Assembly (NCBI GenBank): GCA_021771265.1
Contig: JAETPK010000005.1
Span: 1-54,177 of the forward strand
Source of the DNA: Oscillospiraceae bacterium
GTDB lineage: Bacteria > Bacillota > Clostridia > Oscillospirales > Oscillospiraceae
Direction: 5' to 3'
DNA: 54,177 nt
The translations under genes and the position numbers were made by a program. Each line of letters opens with the position of its first letter. Position 1 is the stretch's first letter. Under the pieces are notes generated by a model that was given only the letters and a program-made list of their open reading frames with translations, made no database searches and was not told where the DNA came from. This document shows, one piece after another, positions 40,404-52,232 of the stretch.

Positions 40404-40482
<79 letters not shown>

Positions 40483-40705: not shown

Positions 40706-41863
40706 TCAGCTATTTGCCGCCACTCTCAGAACTCCTCCCATGGTATTGGCTGCTTCTTTCTGTGCCGCAGTGGTGACATGGGCGTAGGTGTCCAGGGTGA
40801 ATCCCGCCGAGAAGTGGCCCAGCATCCCGGAGACGGTCTTGATATCTACGCCGTTCTGGAGCGCCAGCGTGGCGAAGGTGTGTCGAAGGTCGTGGAAACG
40901 GACTTTTGGCAGACCTGCCCGCTTCAGCACCCGGTGGAGCATATGGAGGACACTGTCCGGAGAGATGGGGCCACCTGTGGGGGATGGAAATACGTATTGG
41001 CTGTTGCCGCATTTTTTCTTCTGTGCTTTCAGGACGTCTGTTGCATCCGCCGACAGCGGTAGGGTGCGGTAGGCGTTTTTCGTTTTCAGTGGGGCTTCCA
41101 CGATCTCACCGTCGATGCGGGCGATTTGCCGCTGTACCCGGAGACTGCCATGTTCCAAATCAATGTCGCTCCATTTCAGCCCAAGCAGTTCTCCCCGGCG
41201 CAGGCCGGTAGCCAGTTCGATATAGTACATCTCGAATACACCACTCTCTTTTGCCTCCCGCAGGAAAGATGTCAGCTGCTCGACGGGAAGCGTTTTCATC
41301 TCCCGGTGTTCGAGCTTTGGGAGAGCACAAGCGTTGGCGGGGTTGGTCAGGATGAGTCTATGCTCGATTGCCAGATTCAAGGCAGAGGCGATAATCTGGT
41401 TGATATTCCGCACTGTCTTGGCGCTGAGGCCCTTGGGCTGCTTCTTGGATTCGATACGCTCCACTCTCCCATTTCCCAACAGCTTTTTGTAGAGCTTCTG
41501 CAATTCCAAAGAAGTGAGTTTATTCAACGGAATGCTGCCGATGTTGGGTTTGATGTGATTCTCGATGTAACCCCGATAGGTCTGGTGAGAGGATGGCCGC
41601 ACTTTGATTTTGGCGTAGTTTTCAAACCAGATGTCCATCCATTGTCCTACGGTGTACTGACCCATTTTGCTCATATCCAGCTTCGCAGAATCCTCGATAG
41701 CCCGTTTCAGCTTTTCTTTGACTTCTGCCTGGGTCCTGCCAAGGACATTTTTGTAGATGGTCTTGCCTGTTACCGGGTCATGTCCTGCTGTGTAGCGGCC
41801 CTCCCAGCGGCCATCCTTGCGCTTGCGGATACTACCCTCACCGTTGGCTCGTTTCTTTGCCAT
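40706..41863 (-). CDS. Tyrosine-type site-specific integrase
   Basis: AP2-like N-term MAKKRANGEGSIRKRKDGRWEGRYTAG; catalytic ATGLRRGELLGLKWSDID, FHDLRHTFATLALQNGVDIKTVSGMLGHFSAGFTLDTYAHVT. Confidence 0.96.
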   Translation of the reverse strand: MAKKRANGEGSIRKRKDGRWEGRYTAGHDPVTGKTIYKNVLGRTQAEVKEKLKRAIEDSAKLDMSKMGQYTVGQWMDIWFENYAKIKVRPSSHQTYRGYIENHIKPNIGSIPLNKLTSLELQKLYKKLLGNGRVERIESKKQPKGLSAKTVRNINQIIASALNLAIEHRLILTNPANACALPKLEHREMKTLPVEQLTSFLREAKESGVFEMYYIELATGLRRGELLGLKWSDIDLEHGSLRVQRQIARIDGEIVEAPLKTKNAYRTLPLSADATDVLKAQKKKCGNSQYVFPSPTGGPISPDSVLHMLHRVLKRAGLPKVRFHDLRHTFATLALQNGVDIKTVSGMLGHFSAGFTLDTYAHVTTAAQKEAANTMGGVLRVAANS

Positions 41864-42206
41864 AGTCACAGCCCTCCTCTCTTGCGATCTCGCAGGCTTG
41901 CCGCTCATCTTCGTCTTCGAAGTTGTAGGGCGGCTGGTCTGCCAGCAATTCCTGCTGGATACCCTGGGCCAGACGGTAACCGGACATAAAGCTGTTCAGG
42001 CAAGTCTGGTCCCGCAGGGCAGCTTCCAGGTCTACAAGGCGCAGGAGCATTTTTCTCTCTGGCTTAGCCAATCTGTTGGCCAGCAGCCTGTGGGTCTTGT
42101 TTGCCGCCTTTTCCAGAGCAGTCATTCGCTCCGATGGAGTCTCAAATCTGTGATAAAGTGCTTTCATATAGTCGTACATGGTGTGCCACCTCCTATTCAG
42201 CAACAC
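41838..42206 (-). CDS. Small integrase-associated protein (DUF6809-like)
   Basis: MYDYMKALYHRFETPSERM...LAKPERKMLLRLVDLEAALRDQTCLNSFMSGYRLAQGI; overlaps integrase start. Confidence 0.6.
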   Translation of the reverse strand: MLLNRRWHTMYDYMKALYHRFETPSERMTALEKAANKTHRLLANRLAKPERKMLLRLVDLEAALRDQTCLNSFMSGYRLAQGIQQELLADQPPYNFEDEDERQACEIAREEGCDYGKETSQR

Positions 42207-42629: not shown

Positions 42630-43039
42630 AAGTGACCGAACAGAGCGTCGCACTTGACGCCTGTTCTTTATCCTGCCTCAGCTTTCGTCCTCCGTCGGCT
42701 CCCGGAAACCGGCCCAAATCCGTCCTCACAGCCCTGGCCGGTGTCTGTTCCCGATTCTCCCGGCAAAGTCGCACACAACGGCTCACAAGGCCAACCAAGG
42801 TGTGAATGGACACTCATCGTTCCCTCCTGTGCCAATAAGTTCTTCTTTGATTACAGCGGTGCATTTTTTGCACCAGCGTTCCGCTGCGTTCATGCACCTT
42901 TCTCAGCACTCCGAATCCGAGCTGTACAGACTTTTGTACAAGCCTGTGCTCTATTATGTTTTCGCAAAAGCGATTTAAAATCGTAATCTCAGAAACCAAC
43001 GTTGGCCCAAAAACCGCATGAATCGGAGGGGATACTTCC

Positions 43040-44326
43040 ATGGGGGAAGAATTGATGCGCAAAGTCTGGAGTATCTGCGCAGACCGCTATGGTGCTGCTT
43101 TGCCGGATGTCATTTTCAACAGACTGCAGCAGGAACTTCAAAATATTACCGTAAATGTCTTTTCCGAAGACTACTTGTCCACAAGCGGCATCTGCCTGGA
43201 GCTCCAGCACTGCAACGCATTACAGATCTGTCTTGGCACGGTTGGCAACTCATTTGTCGCCTACTTATTAGGTATCACAGAGATCAATCCCCTCCCGCCA
43301 CATTACCGCTGTCCTCACTGCAAGCGGGTAATCTTTGTATCGGACGTTTTGGATGGATTTGATTTACCGCCGCAGGATTGCCCCCTCTGCCGCACTCCCA
43401 TGGAAGGTGACGGACATCATTTACATGTTGCATGGTTCACCGGGTGGGATGGAACTTGCCCACCAGCCTTTGGGGAGTTTAGGATGACTCCGAAGGGAAT
43501 CCAAATAACAGAGCAGGCTTTGAAAAAATATTCTCCTCTTACACCGCTTGCATTCAGCGATGGTCGGTTTGCAGGCTGGTATCTTTGCAATTCAGAAACC
43601 CTGAGTCATGCAGAGTGGATGCAACTCACATACCCCGGGCATCCAAACTATATTGTACCGGGAGTGAAATACGACTGCGATCTGCCTGCGCCGCGTATTC
43701 TTGTCCATGACAGTGTTTTTCTAAGAAAGCTGGAATGGCTGTCGGACGTTACCGGCGTTGAGCTATCCTCGATTCCGATGAATAACCCGGCTATATATAA
43801 CGCATTTTGCAGAGCAATTGAGTATGATACCGCTGACGCAGGTAATCTGCTCTGCACAACTGGTCTTTGCGCTTCGGAGGAACTGCTCAGTGACAGATTT
43901 ACTTTTTGGAGACGGGCTTCCAAGAGCGGATTATCTTTTTCCAGACTTGTCTCGCTGTATGGCGTTATGCATATGAGCGTTCGCCATTCGAGTGCATTGG
44001 ATTTGTCCACAGCGTTGACATTCAGTGACCGCGATTCCGTAATGGAGTATCTGATCCGTCAGGGTCTGCCTCCAAAGGACGCTTTCCAAACAGCCGACAA
44101 TATGCGGTGCGGGAGATTTGCCCGCATGCCAGCAGATGCATACCCCGTTTTTACACAGGGAATAAACGATGGCGGCTTCTTTTTTCATGCGGCGCAAAAC
44201 ACGGAGTATCTGTTTCCCAGAGCGCATAATTCATCTGTCGTTATGAATGCTGTGCGGCTGGCCTGGTTTTCCATTTATGAACCAAGTGCTTTTCGGGAAG
44301 TGCAGGACATTGCCCACACTCCATGA
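43040..44326 (+). CDS. PolC-derived palm/fingers protein, predicted catalytically inactive (pseudo-polymerase)
   Basis: LQICLGTVGNSFVAYLLGITEINPLPPHYRCPHCK...FDLPPQDCPLCRTPMEGDGHHL matches PolC GYLVGSRGSVGSSxVATxTEITEVNPLPPHYVCPxC...GFDLPDKxCPxCGTPLKKDGHDI; C-term VMEYLIRQGLPPKDAF and YLFPRAHNSSVVMNAVRLAWF match PolC IMVYLIYxGLEPSLAF and [31 protein letters not shown]. Confidence 0.88.
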   Translation: MGEELMRKVWSICADRYGAALPDVIFNRLQQELQNITVNVFSEDYLSTSGICLELQHCNALQICLGTVGNSFVAYLLGITEINPLPPHYRCPHCKRVIFVSDVLDGFDLPPQDCPLCRTPMEGDGHHLHVAWFTGWDGTCPPAFGEFRMTPKGIQITEQALKKYSPLTPLAFSDGRFAGWYLCNSETLSHAEWMQLTYPGHPNYIVPGVKYDCDLPAPRILVHDSVFLRKLEWLSDVTGVELSSIPMNNPAIYNAFCRAIEYDTADAGNLLCTTGLCASEELLSDRFTFWRRASKSGLSFSRLVSLYGVMHMSVRHSSALDLSTALTFSDRDSVMEYLIRQGLPPKDAFQTADNMRCGRFARMPADAYPVFTQGINDGGFFFHAAQNTEYLFPRAHNSSVVMNAVRLAWFSIYEPSAFREVQDIAHTP

Positions 44327-44407: not shown

Positions 44408-44436
44408 TTGGACAAATTTACACACATATGTTAAGA
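44408..44436 (+). promoter_or_regulatory. Putative promoter of the WYL-nuclease operon: TTGGAC-17 nt-TTAAGA
   Basis: Correct 17-nt spacing ~25 nt upstream of the WYL ORF. Confidence 0.5.
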
Positions 44437-44459
44437 TACAGGCAACAATCAGGCTGGGA

Positions 44460-46849: not shown

Positions 46850-46898
46850 GCTCATAACCCGGAGGTCGCAGGTTCAAGTCCTGTCTCCGCAACCATAA
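46850..46898 (+). repeat. attR: 49-bp direct repeat (3' part of tRNA-fMet)
   Basis: Identical to 40434-40482; no 5' half of a tRNA present. Confidence 0.95.
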
Positions 46899-47152: not shown

Positions 47153-48412
47153 ATGAGTAAGAACATTTACGAAATTAGGGATGTCGTTTATGGTTTCGTT
47201 CAGCTCGATGAGCAAGAATGGGAAATAATAAATAATCCAGTCTATCAAAGGCTACGAAGGATCAAGCAACTCTCATTAACTGACATGGCATATCCCGGAG
47301 CCACACATACACGCCTTGAACATTCTATTGGCGTGATGCAAATGGCTACTGACATATATAATAGTATTACCAATAAAGATAGAGCCCGTGCCCTTCTTGC
47401 AGATCAATATCATCTTACCGATGGCGGTATTGATCGATATCGTAAAATTATCCGGCTGGCAGCGTTACTGCACGATATTGGCCATGCTCCCTTTTCGCAT
47501 ACCGGAGAAAACTTGATGCCAATCAAAGTCCCCGGGACAAATAAACGCTACGATCACGAAGAGTATAGTATAGCCATTATTAAAAAGTATTTCCGAGATA
47601 TTATTGAGGAGCACCCAATTAATGCCAATTATCAAATTAAAGCGGAAGAAGTAACAGCTCTTCTTGGTGATTCGACAAAATGTGCGTTTCAGGGCATTCT
47701 TCTCTTATTTAAGGGTATTATTTCCGGCCAGTTGGATGCAGATCGAGCAGATTACCTTCTTAGGGACTCCATTCATACAGGGGTCAACTATGGATTATAC
47801 GATAAAAACAGGCTTATTAATTGCATTGACATCGGTCAAATGCAAGATACTGATGCTCTGGTATTGGCAGTACAAGATGGTGGATGGCACATTGCCGAAA
47901 GTCTTGTACTGGCCCGCTACCAAATGTTTTCCCAAGTTTATTTCCATAAGACTCGGAGAGCATACGACCACCACGTTAGTTGTGCTGTAAAAGAAATTTT
48001 AGATAAAGCTTATCCTGACTTTGGTGGATACTATCCAACACCAGAAAATCTTGATAAGTACATTGGCCTTGATGATTGGTCGATGTACGGAAAAACGAAA
48101 GATGGATACGGTGGAAAGCACGGACAAATTATTCTAGAACGCCGGCATTATCGGAAAGTCTATGAGACCAGCCTATTGCCTAAACCTGAGGAAGAAGAGG
48201 AACTTAATCGGTTGAGGACGGAAATTCAGCAAAAAGGTGACATGGACTTCTTTGAAGACGAAGCCAAAACCAAATGGTACAAACTCGATAAAGATATATT
48301 AATCTGTGACGAAACTTCTGGTTATGTGAAAGAGCTGAGTAGAATATCACCAATTGTTCGACACATGGTTGATGCTCCAAGAATGAAACGTCTTTATGTT
48401 GAGAAAAAGTGA
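47153..48412 (+). CDS. HD-domain phosphohydrolase (YwfO/dNTPase-like)
   Basis: PVYQRLRRIKQLSLTDMAYPGATHTRLEHSIGVM; LLHDIGHAPFSHTGE; SGQLDADRADYLLRDSIHTGV. Confidence 0.92.
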   Translation: MSKNIYEIRDVVYGFVQLDEQEWEIINNPVYQRLRRIKQLSLTDMAYPGATHTRLEHSIGVMQMATDIYNSITNKDRARALLADQYHLTDGGIDRYRKIIRLAALLHDIGHAPFSHTGENLMPIKVPGTNKRYDHEEYSIAIIKKYFRDIIEEHPINANYQIKAEEVTALLGDSTKCAFQGILLLFKGIISGQLDADRADYLLRDSIHTGVNYGLYDKNRLINCIDIGQMQDTDALVLAVQDGGWHIAESLVLARYQMFSQVYFHKTRRAYDHHVSCAVKEILDKAYPDFGGYYPTPENLDKYIGLDDWSMYGKTKDGYGGKHGQIILERRHYRKVYETSLLPKPEEEEELNRLRTEIQQKGDMDFFEDEAKTKWYKLDKDILICDETSGYVKELSRISPIVRHMVDAPRMKRLYVEKK

Positions 48413-48423
48413 AGGAGATAGCA

Positions 48424-48984
48424 ATGAAAACACAAGAAAGGCTGGCTTTCATAACAGAGATAGCAAAAAGGGACGCAAATATTGGAAAAACCGGGATGAT
48501 GAAATTTTTATATCTGCTACAAGCGATATATAAAGTTCCTTTGGGATATGATTTTGAAATTTATACATACGGCCCATATTGTCAAGCTGTTATGAGTGAT
48601 ATCGAGTATGCAGAGTTTGCAGATTATATTCAGGTAGCCCCTATTACTTATTCAAATGGAATAAGTGGCTATCAAATTACTGCTAAAGATGGGAGTAAAG
48701 AGATTTTAGAAGAAAAGTCAGAAATTCTTTCCAAATACAGCAAGGAAATTAGTGAAGTAATTAGCTCTTTTGGGAAAAAAAATGCTAAGGAGCTGGAACT
48801 GTACTCCACTATTGTTTTTGTCGCATTCTCTTTTTCTGATAATGATTGGGGAAAATCTAAAGGCGAGATTTGCAACGCTGTTAAAAAGATAAAACCACAC
48901 TTTACAATTGAAACAATATCCGAAGCATATGATGATTTAAATCATAAGCATCTTTTAGAAATTGATAAAACACAAGACCGATAA
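48424..48984 (+). CDS. YwgA-like protein paired with HD hydrolase
   Basis: IGKTGMMKFLYLLQAIYKVPLGYDFEIYTYGPYCQAVMSDIEYAEFADYI; RBS GAAGGAG overlapping the HD gene end. Confidence 0.65.
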   Translation: MKTQERLAFITEIAKRDANIGKTGMMKFLYLLQAIYKVPLGYDFEIYTYGPYCQAVMSDIEYAEFADYIQVAPITYSNGISGYQITAKDGSKEILEEKSEILSKYSKEISEVISSFGKKNAKELELYSTIVFVAFSFSDNDWGKSKGEICNAVKKIKPHFTIETISEAYDDLNHKHLLEIDKTQDR

Positions 48985-49704: not shown

Positions 49705-50964
49705 TTACTCAAAGACGGCCTTGGAAATGTCCACGCTCTGCCCGCAGCGGTTGTCGATGTCGGTGCCGTTGCCGTCAAACAGACACTCATCAAAGAACAG
49801 CGTGGAATCGCCGGGCACACTCTCCAGCAAAACGGCGGTGCCATTGTCCACGAACTCATTGCCCGTGTAGGAGTAGTTGCTTACGACGCCGCTGACGGCG
49901 TTGAAGTGGAAGCCGGTGGTGTTGTTCTCAAACCGGCATTCCTGGGCGTTGACCCAGGTCTCCCCGTAGGCCAGCACGCCGGTCTTCCAACCGTAGATAT
50001 TGCAGTTTCTCAGATGGACGCGGGCTTCCGCGGAGATGCCCACGCCGGTGCGGTTACCGGCAAAATCCACATTGTCAAAATAAGAAATTGAACCGCCCTC
50101 ATAGGTGACCTGAAGATTGCCGGTGAAGGTGGTGCGGCCCTCCCCCTCGGTGCTGCCGTAGAGGTTGATGGCCCGCTCCCCGATCACCAGCCCGCCCTCA
50201 TAGGTGACGGCGGGCAGATGGAGGTACACCACGGCGTCAGATTCCACCGTTTCGGGCACCTGATCGATCAGCGCCTGCACCTGCTCCACGGTGTCCATAG
50301 GCGTCTCCTCCGGGTAATAGTGGCAGGCCGGGATGGGGTGGAGGAAGATGGGCATGCGCATGGTAATGGTATCCCCGTTTTTCATGCGGATGGACCAGAC
50401 CTGCTCCGTGTCACCGCTGGCGGCGGTGAAATCGTTCAGGGTGAGCAACGCCACATCCGGGAGGCCGTCATGGGGCGCCGGCTGGGTGCAGATCCAGGGG
50501 CTGGGATTGTCCGCGTCCTGCATAAATTCGGCGGTGGCACTCTCCACCTTCTGCAAAAACACACCGGAGGCGTCGGCGCCGCTGTCCTTGTGGTTGATGT
50601 ACAGCCGCAGGGGAAAGCGGTAGTCCATCTCCTCCTCCGGGTTCTGATCCACCTGGGTGATGGGTTCATAGCGGCCGCTTGAGCTCTTCAGCACCAGCTG
50701 ATAGGTGCCGTCCTCGTCGGTGTAGATCACCTCGCCCACGCCCTCATAGGTCCTGGGCCGGTTTATAAGCCACGCTCCCAAGGCGACGGCTGCGATCACC
50801 ACGACGGCGATCACCCCGTACAGAATTTTCCGGGGAAGGGGCCTGGGCGGGGTTGGTTCGGTACGATCATTGATGCTTTGGGCGCAATGGGGGCAGAAGG
50901 ACGCGCCTTCCGGCAGCTCCGAGCCGCAGTGGGGACATAGTTTCATGGTTTCATTCTCTCTCAT
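49705..50964 (-). CDS. Zinc-ribbon, TM and right-handed beta-helix protein (paralog B)
   Basis: CPHCGSELPEGASFCPHCAQ; TM VIAVVVIAAVALGAWL; repeated beta-helix-like N-rich C-terminal half. Confidence 0.8.
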   Translation of the reverse strand: MRENETMKLCPHCGSELPEGASFCPHCAQSINDRTEPTPPRPLPRKILYGVIAVVVIAAVALGAWLINRPRTYEGVGEVIYTDEDGTYQLVLKSSSGRYEPITQVDQNPEEEMDYRFPLRLYINHKDSGADASGVFLQKVESATAEFMQDADNPSPWICTQPAPHDGLPDVALLTLNDFTAASGDTEQVWSIRMKNGDTITMRMPIFLHPIPACHYYPEETPMDTVEQVQALIDQVPETVESDAVVYLHLPAVTYEGGLVIGERAINLYGSTEGEGRTTFTGNLQVTYEGGSISYFDNVDFAGNRTGVGISAEARVHLRNCNIYGWKTGVLAYGETWVNAQECRFENNTTGFHFNAVSGVVSNYSYTGNEFVDNGTAVLLESVPGDSTLFFDECLFDGNGTDIDNRCGQSVDISKAVFE

Positions 50965-52232
50965 TCATCAAAGGTGGCCCCGGACACATCCAGGCTCTGG
51001 CCGCAGCGGTTGTCGATGTCGATGTCGTTGCCCGAGAACAGGCAGTCTCCGAAGGTCATGGCCACATCGGTGGGCACACTCTCCAGCAGGACGGCGGTGC
51101 CGTTATTCACGAACTCGTTGCCCGTGTATAGGGTGTGGGACACCTGAGCGCCGTCGGCGTTAAAGTGAAAACCCACCGTATTATTCTCAAAATGGCTGGT
51201 CTGGACGTTGACCCAGGTGTAGCCGTAGGCCAGCACCCCGGTCTTCCAACCGGTAATACTGCAGTTGGTCAGGTGGAGCCGGGCGGAGGCGGAGACACCC
51301 ACGCCGGAGCCGCTGCCTGCAAAGTCGATATTGTCAAAAAAGGAGACATAGGACCCGCCGCTGGTTACCCGGACGCTGCCGGTAAAGACGGTGCGCCCCT
51401 CACCTTCCGTATTGCCACAGAGGTTGATAGGGCGGTCCTGGATCACCAGGCTGCCTCCGTAGGTAACAGCGGGCAGATGGAGGTAGACAACGGCGTTTTC
51501 CTCCACTGTGCCGGAGATCTGGTCGATCAGCGCCTGAAGGTCCTCCGTGGTATCCATGGGTGCATTCTCGGGGTAGTAGTGGTAGGTCGGGATCGGATGG
51601 ACATAGATGGTCACCCGAAGGCGAATGGTGTCTCCGTTCTTCATGTGGATGGTCCACACCTGCTCCGTGTCGCCGCTGGCGGCGGTAAAATCGTTCAGCG
51701 TGATCAGTGTGGCGTCTGGCATGGCGTCGTGTGGCGCGGGTTCGGAGCATTTCCAGGGACTGGGGTTGTCCCCAGCCTGGATAAACTCAGCGGTGACGCT
51801 GTCCACCTTTTGAAGGAAGAGCTGCCCCGCATCGGCGCCGCTGTCCTTATGGCTGATATACAGCCGGATGGGGAAGCGGCCATTTTCACCCTCTTCCATG
51901 TTCTGATGGATCTCTGTAATGGGCTGATAGCGGTCACTGGGCCAGGCAAGCACCAGCTGATAGGTGCCGTCATCATCGGCATAGATCACCTCGCCCAGGC
52001 CCTCATAGGTTTTGGGCCGGTTCATGAGCCATACCCCCAGGGCGACGGCGGCGGCCACCACCACGGCGATGATGGCGTACACCGCTTTCCGGGGGAAGGG
52101 CTTGGGCGGGACCGGTTCGGTACGGTCGTTGATGCTCTGGGCGCAGTGGGGGCAGAAAGAGGCACCTTCCGGCAGCTCCGCGCCGCAGTTGGGACATTTC
52201 TTTTCCATCCCTCTTATCCTCCATCCGGTCAC
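50961..52232 (-). CDS. Zinc-ribbon, TM and right-handed beta-helix protein (paralog A)
   Basis: CPNCGAELPEGASFCPHCAQSINDRTEP; full-length similarity to 49705-50964. Confidence 0.8.
   Translation of the reverse strand: MTGWRIRGMEKKCPNCGAELPEGASFCPHCAQSINDRTEPVPPKPFPRKAVYAIIAVVVAAAVALGVWLMNRPKTYEGLGEVIYADDDGTYQLVLAWPSDRYQPITEIHQNMEEGENGRFPIRLYISHKDSGADAGQLFLQKVDSVTAEFIQAGDNPSPWKCSEPAPHDAMPDATLITLNDFTAASGDTEQVWTIHMKNGDTIRLRVTIYVHPIPTYHYYPENAPMDTTEDLQALIDQISGTVEENAVVYLHLPAVTYGGSLVIQDRPINLCGNTEGEGRTVFTGSVRVTSGGSYVSFFDNIDFAGSGSGVGVSASARLHLTNCSITGWKTGVLAYGYTWVNVQTSHFENNTVGFHFNADGAQVSHTLYTGNEFVNNGTAVLLESVPTDVAMTFGDCLFSGNDIDIDNRCGQSLDVSGATFDE

Follow-up and report, generated by a model that had tools for sequence, protein, structure and literature searches.

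The tRNA-Met element and its cargo

The stretch of DNA analysed here (hereafter the window) comprises 54,177 nucleotides of contig JAETPK010000005.1 from an Oscillospiraceae bacterium (assembly GCA_021771265.1) and contains a 6.4 kb integrative element, which is marked as tRNA-targeted by an integrase and by direct repeats at the 3' end of a tRNA-Met gene (Table 1). A preliminary description of this DNA, made from the sequence alone, had placed the gene of interest on an integrative element beside a WYL regulator and a nuclease, and the 49-bp att repeats, the integrase and the WYL/WCX and PF14281 matches bear this out. In addition to the integrase and a DUF6809-like protein the element carries three cargo genes, a PolC-derived gene which we term pseudo-PolC, a WYL/WCX regulator and a PDDEXK_4 nuclease, and it is complete in a second species too.

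Table 1. Features of the tRNA-Met element in the window
Feature	Position	Strand	Basis
tRNA-Met(CAT), integration target	40404..40479	+	ARAGORN; Rfam tRNA
att repeat 1 in tRNA-Met 3' end, left end of element	40434..40482	+	49 bp identical to 46850-46898
Tyrosine recombinase (integrase)	40706..41908	-	Phage_integrase E=1e-30
DUF6809-like small protein	41838..42206	-	PF20648 E=3e-5, 25.1 bits, slightly below curated cut-off of 27
Ribosome-binding site GGAGGGG of pseudo-PolC, strong	43025..43031	+	Read from sequence
Pseudo-PolC, 428 aa (N-half of palm, zinc module and fingers, without the catalytic Asp)	43040..44326	+	Sequence, profile and structure matches
WYL/WCX transcription regulator, 324 aa	44460..45434	+	WYL E=7e-8, WCX E=5e-7, both above cut-off
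PDDEXK_4 nuclease, 413 aa	45437..46678	+	PF14281 E=3e-37; PADLOC PDC-S26 E=8e-133
att repeat 2, right end of element	46850..46898	+	49-bp direct repeat

The cargo genes are closely spaced, with 133 bp from the end of pseudo-PolC to the WYL gene and 2 bp between the WYL and nuclease genes. A promoter-like site at 44409-44437, right ahead of the WYL gene, could uncouple its expression from that of pseudo-PolC; promoter and terminator counts around the spacer are the same as those in shuffled sequence, and an operator here was rejected as there is also no notable inverted repeat. For an N-terminal helix-turn-helix in the regulator the HTH_11 score is 15.1 bits, below the cut-off of 25. The nuclease retains a D-ExK motif (D111/E126/K128, read by eye) and by its profile match is a candidate phage-defence protein (PDC-S26) with a putative anti-phage role; in PADLOC the regulator matches generic WYL models only and pseudo-PolC has no match.

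Just outside the element, at 47153-48984, an HD-domain (dGTPase-like) gene is followed by one for a protein weakly similar to SocA/Panacea and to the DarG C-terminal region, which could be a toxin-antitoxin-like pair. Further along, on the minus strand at 49705-52232, two tandem paralogous proteins of 419 and 423 aa, apparently a recent duplication, carry a zinc-ribbon-like motif at the N-terminus and also a hydrophobic segment.

A PolC core without catalytic aspartates

The similarity of pseudo-PolC to PolC falls into two colinear blocks (residues 3-142 and 220-418), as expected from the earlier claim of colinearity with the palm, zinc module and fingers. The matches to PDB PolC 3f2b (E=2e-38), to NCBIfam TIGR01405 (E=3e-52, at 177.5 bits far below the family cut-off of 1043) and to Pfam DNA_pol3_alpha (E=8e-9) are, as sequence matches, well past chance. 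An AlphaFold model built from a 36-row alignment has a pLDDT of 83 and a pTM of 0.87, and when this prediction, a check that the preliminary description had proposed, was compared with the PDB, the top five matches were all PolC (E of ~1e-18 to 1e-19, TMq 0.73-0.76). The C-family palm/fingers fold is thus present by both PDB sequence match and predicted structure.

The catalytic motifs are another matter. PDIDLNF of PolC is replaced by PPAFGEFR, KLDxLGHD by PRILVHD and GSRGSVGSS by CLGTVGNS, and in an alignment of 36 sequences the columns of the catalytic aspartates are occupied by A143, E146 and L221, in agreement with the initial reading that all three appeared to have been lost. On top of these substitutions the palm is partly deleted between the two matching blocks, and the PHP, Exo, OB and C-terminal domains, likewise described as missing, are absent from the 428 aa. 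All four zinc cysteines (91, 94, 114 and 117) are retained in the same alignment. By alignment and model the ORF is therefore a stand-alone PolC core, predicted to be catalytically dead and with most of its domains gone; a full-length polC lies on another contig of the same genome, in an open frame of 1354 aa.

The cassette in related genomes

The cassette is found in three of 86 genomes of the genus, G000 (the window genome), G805 and G566, the latter two representing two further species. In G805 the att sequence is the same and pseudo-PolC is again 428 aa, 94% identical to the window copy, whilst in G566 the gene is 5'-truncated to its last 235 codons and the WYL and nuclease genes are intact. 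The G566 copy sits in a composite island (L035 7513-14903) which reads att, DnaQ-type exonuclease with BRCT, unknown gene, truncated pseudo-PolC, WYL, nuclease, second att and integrase, and looks like a tandem insertion at one tRNA.

The pseudo-PolC genes of G000 and G805 differ at 49 nucleotides, with no indels. These differences produce 27 amino-acid changes where 33.6 would be expected under random change (P=0.027), compared with 4 against 15.3 for the WYL gene (P<0.001), and the NG86 dN/dS values are 0.38 and 0.05 respectively; the window pseudo-PolC is therefore, on present data, at most weakly constrained. It had been called a domesticated pseudo-polymerase, and of that claim the dead core on an element beside WYL and nuclease genes stands; the action of this copy as a decoy, sensor or inhibitor stays a proposal, its own selection signal being weak and one related copy truncated. 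The gene could be a decaying former mini-PolC (a larger PolC variant described below), an element passenger of no present function, as is suggested by the weak selection, the much better conserved WYL gene, the G566 truncation and the decayed copies seen elsewhere (L133 with stops, and the remnant L157). We consider this unlikely, as a 428-codon frame has stayed intact in two species through 49 changes without an indel (the chance of no stop being 0.22), the ribosome-binding site is good and a related dead clade is strongly constrained.

Accessory PolC-derived genes in Clostridia

A wider set of accessory PolC-derived genes emerged when 394 genomes of the order and 371 genomes of the class were surveyed; in the genomes checked they sit alongside a full-length polC. 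They include pseudo-PolCs of ~360-530 aa (L070, L071, L072, L073-L077 and L123-L128) and mini-PolCs of ~690-820 aa with PHP and without Exo (L130-L132, L134 and L135), PHP having been called by reading the sequences, with a Pfam test that covered L080, a dead copy bearing PHP. Some of the mini-PolCs look active and others dead. The catalytic triad is intact in L131, L132, L134 and L144, L130 and L145 have lost part of it, and L204, L169 and L135 lack it despite a full-length palm; the pseudo-PolCs carry a palm deletion as well. This graded loss of catalysis within a full-length palm suggests that binding, rather than synthesis, is the retained feature.

A single origin for all pseudo-PolCs was rejected: the tree is poorly resolved with long branches, and the pseudo label needs ~5 changes, at least 2 of them forced. 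An origin from phages or plasmids was also set aside, as tblastn against these returned apparently mostly ordinary PolC matches, and none of five scans of viral contigs found a pseudo-PolC, the matches of one scan lying essentially within the XRE domain.

That domain, an N-terminal XRE helix-turn-helix, is fused to pseudo-PolC in the clade L073-L077. Two pairs from this clade give dN 0.14/dS 0.76 and dN 0.19/dS 1.24 for the dead core (dN/dS 0.15-0.19), so that it is clearly under purifying selection. In L076 (1-10418, genome G077) the fused gene lies directly upstream of an apparent pyrH-frr-uppS-cdsA-rseP-ispG cluster, with the true polC ~5 kb beyond. Two further loci have unusual surroundings: in L124 (161-3463, G889) an AIG1/GTPase-like gene is flanked by two tandem pseudo-PolC genes, and in L125 (5330-10226, G939) a TIR_2+SEC-C protein, an unknown gene, a tubulin/FtsZ-like protein and pseudo-PolC follow in a row on one strand.

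Linkage to WYL regulators

When accessory loci are picked by PolC match alone, the window clade, L072, L126, L130, L131 and L132 turn out to have a WYL gene close by. RtcB is the neighbour at L134 and L135, and a phosphatase at L071 (calcineurin-like) and L123 (DSP-like), so that a WYL, RtcB or phosphatase neighbour is present at 10 of the 17 loci that are not XRE-fused; at the pseudo-PolC loci L070, L124, L125, L127 and L128 no WYL gene is nearby. WYL genes are scarce in the genomes counted, with one in the window genome (that of the cassette), one in G931 and four in G125. The window WYL protein belongs to the A4 group and is 34% identical to that of L126.

For a reciprocal scan three WYL proteins were searched against 84,980 genomes and the 80 nearest loci were kept, 873 kb in total. 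A PolC-derived accessory gene lies within 6 kb of the WYL gene in 12 of these 80 and a full-length polC in none. About 10 of the 12 are independent, because L136 was itself one of the queries and L211 is closely related to L215. The number expected is ~0.01-0.02; we obtain ~0.01 from the ~11 accessory genes in 371 class genomes of ~2.4 Mb, an estimate that takes no account of a possible general tendency of such genes to cluster in islands. In five cases (the window, L126/L136, L144, L130/L187 and L204) the PolC-like gene sits on the same strand as the WYL gene, directly 5' of it and no more than ~135 bp away. For L204 the full three-gene order was considered and rejected, as the gene after WYL is PDDEXK-like by eye, has no Pfam or PADLOC match and gives an insignificant profile comparison.

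Among the further families that recur in the WYL islands are RtcB, AAA ATPases and a DUF2779/Cas4-like protein. Across L136-L215 these shared families include an uncharacterised 247-aa protein that is often directly 3' of WYL (39 loci), an AAA protein (25), a 561-aa protein (21), the DUF2779/Cas4-like protein (17), a 116-aa RGVFW protein (16) and RtcB (15). RtcB, the calcineurin phosphatase, the AAA pair and the other recurring island genes are absent from the window element, L069 and L035. RNA-repair conflict islands, reportedly treated by Burroughs and Aravind in 2016, are likely to be relevant.

Random decayed polC fragments with no conserved neighbourhood, the outcome that the preliminary description had set against its own reading, are not what was found for the wider group. 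WYL linkage of independent PolC-derived genes is far above expectation and the dN/dS of the XRE-fused clade is low, and random decay of polC is therefore rejected for the group as a whole, remaining a rival for the window copy. The recurrence of similar crippled polymerases beside WYL genes in Clostridia suggests their reuse as sensors or decoys.

Possible function of the cassette

The explanation that we tentatively prefer, and to which we give close to an even chance, is that pseudo-PolC is a non-catalytic sensor or partner in a WYL-regulated cassette controlling the PD-(D/E)XK nuclease. The retained palm/zinc/fingers scaffold would bind a ligand connected with replication, be it DNA (single-stranded or primed), a nucleotide or a partner in the replisome, the ligand state would be relayed to the WYL regulator, and this would control the downstream nuclease, with a role in defence. 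It is plausible, by analogy, that a dead core, possibly retaining the ability to bind DNA, nucleotides or components of the replisome, could serve as the input to a WYL switch: in PafBC the WYL domains are reported to be activated by ssDNA (PMC11804915), and the WYL repressor BrxR is reported to control phage-defence islands (PMC9122601).

This sensor reading draws on the PolC fold being kept with the zinc cysteines as the three aspartates were lost, on the proximity of PolC-derived and WYL genes in clades that are unrelated, together with WYL rarity, the reciprocal scan and the five cases with the PolC-like gene directly 5' of WYL, on the graded triad loss in L130, L145, L204, L169 and L135, on the constrained XRE-fused clade, on an att-bounded element with its integrase and three cargo genes that is complete in a second species, and on the ability of WYL proteins to sense ssDNA and regulate phage defence. 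Against it stand the weak selection on the window copy, the pseudo-PolC loci that have no nearby WYL gene, the promoter-like site ahead of the WYL gene, and the G566 cassette, whose intact WYL and nuclease genes beside a truncated pseudo-PolC imply no strict requirement for the full-length gene.

It would seem improbable, to much the same degree as decay, that pseudo-PolC is instead a decoy that mimics the host polymerase core and absorbs phage or rival-element proteins by which PolC is attacked or hijacked; the WYL and nuclease genes would then be a separate defence. The positions kept do include conserved PolC ones (the zinc module, PPHY and YLFPRAH), the carrier is mobile with a defence-candidate nuclease, and mimicry is consistent with repeated loss of catalysis; however, the repeated WYL pairing and the XRE fusion are left unexplained, and the protein is by now far removed from PolC in sequence, with a stem branch of ~2.5 changes per site. 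Least probable is a nuclease partner or antitoxin, or an inhibitor competing with the host PolC for replisome contacts. The genes are adjacent on one strand and the nuclease motif is kept, but a strict antitoxin is hard to reconcile with G566, where the nuclease is intact and no more than the final 235 codons of pseudo-PolC survive, and the lack of the C-terminal part of PolC past the fingers also counts against this reading.

Taking the sensor reading beyond the window, Clostridia may repeatedly have converted the core of the replicative polymerase into a sensor without catalysis, WYL-paired on mobile conflict islands or XRE-fused, that triggers defence in response to disturbed replication or to a replicating phage; this is more speculative than the proposal for the window cassette, and we hold it to be possible rather than probable.

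Comparison with known systems

Pseudo-PolC is like PolC-type DNA polymerase III (TIGR01405; 3f2b) in its fold and in its colinear palm/zinc/fingers sequence, and unlike PolC (~1440 aa) it has 428 aa and lacks the OB, PHP, Exo and tail domains and the catalytic aspartates. Closer in domain content to the mini-PolCs are Exo-less PolC variants, whose PHP and polymerase without Exo resemble L130-L135, L144 and L145 (PMC3919608). The 2013 survey of C-family polymerases noted such Exo-less PolCs in Clostridia and Negativicutes; according to the available portion of its text it discarded fragments without an intact active site, and therefore pseudo-PolCs are undescribed there, and that portion makes no mention of the WYL linkage seen for the island PolCs here (PMC3919608).

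ImuB and other inactive Y-family polymerases provide a precedent for a polymerase kept as a non-catalytic partner, although ImuB is Y-family with DnaE2/RecA-like partners, whereas pseudo-PolC is C-family and no such neighbours were seen at its locus (PMC12926913). The accessible part of that 2026 survey does not mention an inactive PolC (PMC12926913). In the literature we found nothing that joins PolC to a pseudo-polymerase or to a WYL domain; dead versions of other polymerases are known as functional components, and a description of a dead replicative C-family polymerase as a working part was not found in the material available.

BrxR, CapW and PafBC, WYL regulators of defence and of the DNA-damage response, are like the cassette in having a WYL-type regulator beside a defence-candidate gene, and differ in that the available text on them reports no PolC-derived partner (PMC9122601, PMC9122588, PMC11804915). 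PDC-S26 of PADLOC strongly matches the cassette nuclease and leaves pseudo-PolC unmatched. If the PolC cores are sensors or decoys, they would reveal how a cell keeps watch for attacks on its replication machinery; they would also offer directly testable WYL/pseudo-PolC pairs, active-looking intermediates included. The novelty lies in a dead-polymerase component within an otherwise known type of system, the WYL-regulated conflict cassette.
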